NCBI GenBank assembly: GCA_903912525.1
Contig: CAIWHK010000042.1
Span: forward strand, 1 to 64,000
DNA length: 64,000 nt
Direction: 5' to 3'
Source: an uncultured bacterium
GTDB lineage: Bacteria > Krumholzibacteriota > Krumholzibacteriia > LZORAL124-64-63
In this document: piece by piece, positions 45,313-49,989 of the stretch
Layout of the letters: each line of letters begins with the position of its first letter
Numbering within the stretch: the first letter of the stretch is position 1
The notes under the pieces: model-generated
What the model was told of the DNA's origin: nothing
The model's database searches: none
What the model saw: only the letters and a program-made list of their open reading frames with translations
Translations under genes and position numbers: made by a program

Positions 45313-45457
45313 CGGGGATCCTTTCGGATGAGGTTCAAGCCGCCAGCATAACGACGACCGGGCCCGATGTCTCGCGCGGTTGTGCCGCCCCGGCCACCCG
45401 GTGTACAGTGCGCGGCGACAGCCGCACCGCGACCGCCAGCCGAAGGAACCTGACCCC

Positions 45458-46213
45458 ATGCCGCGCAAGCCCGCGAACATCGCCCCCGCCGTCGTGGCCG
45501 CCACCGTCGACCTGCGCGACGCCGTGAACAAGTGCCGCTTTCCCGAGCCGGTGGCCCATGTCTACAACCCGCTCGACTACGCCTGGGCCCTGCACGAGCA
45601 GTACCTCACCCGGTGGGGCGCCACGCCCCGGCGCGTGCTGTTCCTGGGCATGAACCCGGGGCCGTGGGGGATGGCGCAGACCGGCGTGCCGTTCGGCGAG
45701 GTGGCCGCGGTGAAGGACATCCTCCACCTGGACGGCGTGGTCGGCAGGCCGAAGCAGGAGCATCCCAAGCGCATCGTCGAGGGGCTGGCCTGCACGCGCT
45801 CGGAAGTCAGCGGCCGGCGCCTGTGGGGCTTCTTCGACCAGCAGTGCGGCGGCGCCGAAGGCTTCTTCCGCGAGCACATCGTCCTGAACTACTGCCCGCT
45901 GGTGTTCATGGAAGAATCCGCGCGCAACCTGACGCCCGACAAGCTGCCGGCCGCGTCGGCGGCGCCGCTGTTCAAGGCGTGCGATGCGTGGCTGCGCCGG
46001 GTCATCGACCTCTATCAACCGGAGTTCGCCGTGGGCGTGGGCGCATTCGCGCGCAAGAAGCTCGAGGCGCTGTATGCCGCCGGCGTGCCGGTCGCACACA
46101 CGCCCGCCGCCTTCGGCACCCTGCTGCACCCGAGCCCGGCCAGTCCCGCCGCCAACCGGGGCTGGGAAGCTGCCGCGCTGGTCCAACTGAAAGATCAGGG
46201 AATCTGGCTCTGA
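45458..46213 (+). CDS. SMUG1-type uracil-DNA glycosylase
   Basis: A 251-residue DNA repair enzyme of the SMUG1 family. The water-activating loop GMNPGPWGMAQTGVPFGEV spans about residues 64-82, HIVLNYCPLVFME lies in the core, and HPSPASPAANRGW near residue 225 is the intercalating/His motif. It removes uracil, and in the family also 5-hydroxymethyluracil, from DNA. AAGGAA lies 10 bases before the ATG. The gene is alone; two structured RNA candidates follow it on the same strand. Confidence 0.92.
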   Translation: MPRKPANIAPAVVAATVDLRDAVNKCRFPEPVAHVYNPLDYAWALHEQYLTRWGATPRRVLFLGMNPGPWGMAQTGVPFGEVAAVKDILHLDGVVGRPKQEHPKRIVEGLACTRSEVSGRRLWGFFDQQCGGAEGFFREHIVLNYCPLVFMEESARNLTPDKLPAASAAPLFKACDAWLRRVIDLYQPEFAVGVGAFARKKLEALYAAGVPVAHTPAAFGTLLHPSPASPAANRGWEAAALVQLKDQGIWL

Positions 46214-46328
46214 GCCCTTGCCAGCGGGACGCTTTGAACGTACATAATCATTAAGTAACATTTCGCCACTAGGTGCGACATCCTGTGGCAAGCGCGGTGG
46301 GGGTCCCTGGAGGGGCATCGTCGGCGAG

Positions 46329-46430
46329 GCCTGCAAACCCTCCCGGCGAGGTAAATCGGGTCCGATCGGGACGAGAATGCGTGTTGGGCGAGCATGCACC
46401 TCAAAACGATCGGACCCGTATTTCTTTATT
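46329..46430 (+). ncRNA. Structured RNA candidate, tandem copy 1
   Basis: An 11-base perfect outer stem pairs CGGGTCCGATC (46357-46367) with GATCGGACCCG (46408-46418). Inside, GAG/CTC and TGCGTG/CATGCA stack under a 9-base apical loop TTGGGCGAG (46384-46392). GGGAC follows the 5' arm and AAAAC precedes the 3' arm. A T-rich stretch (TATTTCTTTATTT) follows the 3' arm. Copy 2 at 46611-46697 has the same loops with compensatory stem changes. An AT-rich, promoter-like patch lies upstream at 46241-46263. The match to any named family is not known to me. Confidence 0.6.
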
Positions 46431-46532
46431 TCATAATGAGTTGCCGGGCAGGCGCGAGGTTCATGCGGATTCAGGCCGGGAAGCCAAAGAATCTTCAGAA
46501 ACTTTTGCCGGTTCTCTTACGGATTCCCGCAA

Positions 46533-46538
46533 TATACT
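46533..46538 (+). promoter_or_regulatory. Possible -10 element for structured RNA copy 2
   Basis: TATACT stands in a locally AT-rich patch about 95 bases before the outer stem of copy 2. No well-spaced -35 is evident. Confidence 0.25.
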
Positions 46539-46610
46539 TCTAGGAACAGCATTAGTGGGGGATGGGGGGACCCGCTCCGCCGATGCGCAGCGGATGACGA
46601 GCTTCCGGAG

Positions 46611-46697
46611 CCTGCAAGCCCGGAATCGATGGGATCCGGCCGGGACGGCAATGCGTGTTGGGCGAGCACGCATGCCAGAACGGCCGGGTCTTTTTTT
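46611..46697 (+). ncRNA. Structured RNA candidate, tandem copy 2
   Basis: The outer stem pairs GATCCGGCC (46633-46641) with GGCCGGGTC (46682-46690), with one G-T pair. The inner stem GGC/GCC plus ATGCGTG/CACGCAT carries the same apical loop TTGGGCGAG (46658-46666). The flanking GGGAC and AGAAC correspond to GGGAC and AAAAC of copy 1, and GCCTGCAA lies upstream in both. A run of seven T follows directly, so the element ends in or acts as an intrinsic terminator. It lies between convergent genes and points away from SMUG1 toward the end of carB. Confidence 0.6.
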
Positions 46698-46725
46698 GCC
46701 CGGCGGCGAACGCTGATCCGGTGAA

Positions 46726-49972
<3,247 letters not shown>

Positions 49973-49989
<17 letters not shown>

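Follow-up and report, generated by a model that had tools for sequence, protein, structure and literature searches.

What are the two long hairpins that stand in tandem between a pair of convergent genes in this uncultured bacterium? The original prediction, made for the window (the whole 64,000-nucleotide stretch of DNA that was analysed), read them as probably either small RNAs in their own right or an elaborate double terminator. This reading is supported: the hairpins are terminator-like and probably belong to independent small RNAs, since similar RNAs lie at unrelated loci with promoter-like sequences of their own and the loop is conserved beyond what stem strength would require. Upstream lies a gene of the uracil-DNA-glycosylase superfamily. 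The convergent gene is presumably a carB homologue, judging by its own sequence and an adjoining carA-like open reading frame. The features of the interval are as follows.

45452 to 46213, + strand: uracil-DNA-glycosylase superfamily gene, upstream of the hairpins
46218 to 46265, + strand: copy 1, AT-rich stretch, putatively promoter-like, without a recognised consensus promoter
46297 to 46303, + strand: copy 1, 5' motif GTGGGGG, also present in other members
46357 to 46418, + strand: copy 1, terminal hairpin P3 (outer stem of 12 bp, GGAC/AAAA internal loop, GAG/CTC, apical stem)
46384 to 46392, + strand: copy 1, invariant loop TTGGGCGAG
46419 to 46432, + strand: copy 1, T-rich tail
46504 to 46537, + strand: copy 2, promoter-like block TTTGCCGGTTCT...CGCAATATAC
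46555 to 46561, + strand: copy 2, 5' motif GTGGGGG, also present in other members
46631 to 46692, + strand: copy 2, terminal hairpin P3
46658 to 46666, + strand: copy 2, invariant loop TTGGGCGAG
46691 to 46697, + strand: copy 2, seven-T tail
46726 to 49989, - strand: carB-like gene, convergent

The two elements are arranged in tandem as predicted. Their spacing had been put at about 280 bases and is 274 nt, both between the two 60-nt hairpins and from start to start of the 59-nt repeat that contains most of each (46355-46413 and 46629-46687, 78% identity). The common apical loop and the T-rich stretch behind each element were both confirmed. With their flanks, the two repeat copies fold on the + strand at -41.5 and -41.9 kcal/mol, and the fold energies of the hairpins are 4.9 and 4.0 SD lower than those of dinucleotide shuffles. 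The claim that three helices differ by compensatory changes also holds, as all 15 stem differences between copy 1 and copy 2 preserve pairing (six double and three single pair changes, none broken), and none of 200,000 random substitution sets in a simulation preserved it as well. A second stem found in other members, P2, appears in the window copies in alternative folds only. The transcript of copy 1 may start at about 46250-46275, an uncertain placement.

By structure, both hairpins are intrinsic terminators, in which a T tract follows a GC-rich hairpin. Among 31 terminator-like hairpins in the 415 kb surveyed from this genome, they ranked first and second by energy and were about twice the usual length, the terminators typical of this genome having 24-32 nt. 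Only the window pair passed the T-tail filter in a scan for hairpins with this loop over about 1.57 Mb of the genome, taken in stretches. Identity as a terminator leaves the constant loop unexplained.

A third copy stands in a genome of the same genus, G003 (contig JAIFKS010000142.1), where the hairpin is flanked by carB and the same glycosylase gene; an exact 20-mer search of the genome collection matched no contig but this one. Across the three carB-site copies, 23 pairs in three sequences give 69 of 69 paired cells, and in seven pairs both bases have changed; when the partner strand is displaced by 1-3 columns, pairing falls to 27-45%. The 21-nt apex TGCGTGTTGGGCGAGCAYGCA is the same in all three save one base. 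The GGGAC and A-x-AAC strands described in the original prediction are real in both window copies, but the internal loop that they form is missing in the G003 copy, in which the stem is continuous. The promoter-like block before copy 2 has 27 of its 34 bases in common with the stretch that precedes the G003 copy. Copy 2 is therefore probably the orthologue of the G003 copy, and copy 1 would be an extra sibling. Elsewhere in the genus, the G001 contig ends within the glycosylase gene, and a search of G002 for the gene ends that flank the site did not find them. In other genera the carB/glycosylase neighbourhood has a different content and the hairpin is absent from it.

The expectation that the elements belong to no known family was borne out. 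Rfam 15 covariance models gave no match over the whole window and none in 46200-46740 up to an E-value of 10, and on the other family members they gave a single unrelated sub-threshold match. Further homologues with covariation, which the original prediction had proposed to seek, were found in the form of the third copy at the carB site and eight members elsewhere. Two covariance models were used, R2, built on the carB-site locus of the window, and R3, built from hairpins of the genera g7 and g12 only. The sole R2 matches in this genome are the two window copies. In genus g7, R2 gave weak matches, the first of which, taken one by one, fell short of significance for the set of genomes searched. 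One of these, L076 in G032, has an orthologue, L100, in G026 (E 4e-13); both are divergent from an ECF-type sigma gene and share an identical apex, GTGCGATCAGGGCGAGGTCGCAT, while the outer stem has diverged. A pattern search with one mismatch led to L136 in G014 (genus g12), whose orthologue is L145 in G034 (alignment E 2e-43). R3 then added L193 in G017, which adjoins the same ECF-type sigma gene as L076 and L100, L208 and L209 in G026 and G032, and L197 (G003 C54), a second site in the source genome's own genus. L197 is also matched by R2, with 25.2 bits (E 7e-4), and so bridges the g7/g12 set and the carB-site set.

The family thus assembled consists of intergenic RNAs and spans three genera: the source genome's own (two sites), g7 (two sets), and g12 (one set). 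G003, G026, and G032 have two sites each and the window holds a pair, so that several homologous structured RNAs occur per genome or site. Outside the carB site, 91.8% of stem cells pair in the eight members and 15 of 20 pairs are changed on both sides, which none of 500 shuffles reached, in an alignment fitted to the model, four of the eight being its training sequences. The hairpin structure is under selection and presents a constant [A/U]GGGCGAG loop at several unrelated genomic sites. That the window pair and the g7 and g12 RNAs are homologous is, from sequence comparison, likely rather than proven; R3 gives window copy 2 just 14.8 bits (E 0.41), and the 5' parts of the window copies gave no significant alignment with those of other members. 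The pattern TGCG-N4-GGGCGAG-N3-GCA occurs eight times in 80 genomes, five of them within these RNAs, a count that measures background and is no blind test because the pattern was drawn from the RNAs themselves.

Several candidates were rejected. The R3 matches L194, L195, L198, and L204 lie inside long open reading frames, as do most matches of the one-mismatch pattern. The pattern CGTTGCCGA...GGGCGA proved insufficiently specific, and its match in G009 appears to fall within coding sequence. Viral matches of GTGTTGGGCGAGCAYGC appear to be chance occurrences within coding sequence.

From 5' to 3', a member consists of GUGGGG(G), the stem P2, and the terminator hairpin P3. All 11 members end in a long P3 with the [A/U]GGGCGAG loop, and the 5' motif is present in 7 of the 11, compared with 3.2% of background 140-nt segments. 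P2 is found in most members and is clear in the g7 and g12 RNAs and in L197; its sequence changes freely (GGCAACG/CGUUGCC, GGCAGCACCA/UGGUGCUGCC, UCAGUCAG/CUGACUGA, and others). L208 and L209 lie downstream of genes for NtrC-type regulators (Sigma54_activat, E below 1e-59) and are preceded by the sigma54-type sequences AGGCATGGCCCTTGCT and TGGCATGATAACTGCA, each of which fits the sigma54 type at 10 of 11 scored positions and which lie upstream of the loop by 186 and 179 nt; a score this high is reached by 0.2% of background 250-nt segments. The copies beside the sigma gene in G026 and G032 share with the g12 copies a GTGMRTCCAAA(A)CC block, placed ahead of TATA-like bases. The window copies carry neither the sigma54-type sequence nor this block, and no recognised promoter type was found before them. 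The promoter-like sequences that precede family members are likely, if not proven, to be functional.

Four further observations concern related sequences. In G028 (L131, C23, about 560-670), an aminotransferase-like open reading frame is preceded, at a distance of about 140 nt, by a candidate twelfth member, which combines GTGGGG, a 13-bp P2 hairpin with the loop CAGGGCGAAC, and a terminator with a TGGGCGA loop, so that GGGCGA stands in two loops. The middle of the g12 RNAs L136 and L145 contains a conserved GGTTTTGCGCCCTGTATTTCGCTTT that includes CGCCCT; this is perfectly complementary to the AGGGCG of the loop, and a pseudoknot within these RNAs is possible. Immediately after a lipoprotein-like gene in G026 (L073, C42, 1501-1568) lies a strong terminator with the apex GTGC-AGGGCGA-GCAC, which has the same loop as the family; a promoter of its own was not in evidence. 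Also in G026 (L105, C17, 1501-1530), a 30-nt stretch outside any family hairpin is 87% identical to the middle of the G032 RNA.

Could the hairpins be terminators and nothing else? They would then end transcription of the glycosylase gene, perhaps shielding the convergent carB, with no RNA product of their own. A hairpin and T tract between convergent genes is what such an arrangement would look like, and the similar AGGGCGA-loop hairpin directly 3' of the lipoprotein-like gene points the same way. However, the loop is kept across loci, which counts against this account because termination needs no fixed loop; moreover, the ordinary terminators of this genome have just 24-32 nt, a conserved block lies 95-130 nt upstream of the copy 2 hairpin, and no T tract was seen after the hairpin on the carB strand. 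We regard a pure terminator function as unlikely.

An RNA that titrates an RNA-binding protein through its GGGCGA and GUGGGGG elements, in the manner of CsrB/RsmZ or CrcZ, is a still less probable alternative. Multiple siblings under different control are typical of such systems, as in CrcZ and CrcY (PMC8871633), and the G028 candidate has GGGCGA in two hairpin loops, but most members leave GGCGA unrepeated and usually have one such loop per RNA. The sponge reading is weakened by the absence of a general upstream enrichment of GGCGA in the RNAs. It is very improbable that the hairpins are an artefact of coding sequence or of a mobile palindromic repeat. A 147-aa open reading frame on the + strand (46273-46716) does stay open across both hairpins, and palindromic repeats can disperse, yet a spacing of 274 is no multiple of 3, so the frame reads the two repeat copies differently (CVLGEH vs MRVGRA), and the changes between copies track base pairing, not codons. 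This frame is probably not a gene. Against a mobile repeat, there are just two R2 copies in the genome and the G003 relative lies at the orthologous site.

We consider it probable that the window hairpins terminate two sibling small RNAs of about 150-180 nt, which stand in tandem and are transcribed separately. They would be members of a dispersed family in which the loop is the contact site and which probably spans three or more genera within a single uncultivated bacterial family. We infer that the RNAs are expressed and act in trans on targets or a partner. Under this small-RNA reading, every member would have a regulator of its own to activate it, such as an ECF-type sigma factor or sigma54 together with an activator of the NtrC type, and each transcript would end at its hairpin. 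Contact with the target would be made by the constant loop, possibly together with the 5' GUGGGGG; with different regulators acting on the members, several signals would thus be fed into one common trans-acting output, either through base pairing or through the binding of a protein. As for the stems, they would serve to display the loop and terminate transcription, and could drift with compensation because they do no more than this. Complements of the loop were not enriched near 201 start codons. More tentatively, the RNAs may form a clade-wide family of unusual design, in which a constant G-rich terminator heptaloop, [A/U]GGGCGA, is kept while stems are rewritten wholesale and copies under different sigma factors (sigma54/NtrC, ECF, and others) act on a protein or RNA partner.

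If true, this would be a structured RNA family new to Rfam, in a lineage represented here only by assembled genomes. The covariation makes its structure safe even before any experiment, and with a constant loop, the question of its contact partner can be put directly to the test. The placing of siblings under different sigma systems suggests that several input signals converge on one regulatory output.

Among known systems, intrinsic terminators share the GC-rich hairpin and T tract, but the window hairpins are twice the usual length and conserve their loop sequence. 6S RNA (RF00013) is likewise hairpin-rich and of similar size; however, the hairpins are not 6S RNA, as the sole match in this genome is a true 6S RNA elsewhere (G000 C28:106359-106534, 74 bits), which was found in 16 of the 18 genomes searched. 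CrcZ, CrcY, and CrcX of Pseudomonas are sibling sRNAs with a sigma54 promoter activated by the NtrC-type CbrB encoded upstream, and CrcZ titrates Hfq/Crc (PMC8871633). L208 and L209 resemble them, by sequence, in a sigma54-type promoter beside an NtrC-type gene, whereas the window copies have no such promoter, and no motif or sequence relation to CrcZ tested positive. LhrC1-5 of Listeria are sibling sRNAs whose CU-rich contact regions, terminator loop included, pair with Shine-Dalgarno sequences (PMC5880928). They share with the window RNAs a multi-copy organization and, for the contact site proposed here, the use of a terminator loop, but differ in the CU-rich nature of those contacts and in lineage. 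NmsRA and NmsRB of Neisseria are likewise tandem siblings in one intergenic region, with near-identical structures and about 70% identity (PMC5362039); their UC-rich anti-Shine-Dalgarno regions have no conserved counterpart in the window RNAs. In place of the C/U-rich loop complementary to Shine-Dalgarno sequences seen in LhrC and NmsR, the loop here is the G-rich GGGCGA. Given the differences in lineage, sequence, and loop, and the lack of an Rfam match, we do not claim membership in LhrC, NmsR, or CrcZ; the best comparison is with the way such sibling sRNAs work, which the window RNAs would appear to resemble most.
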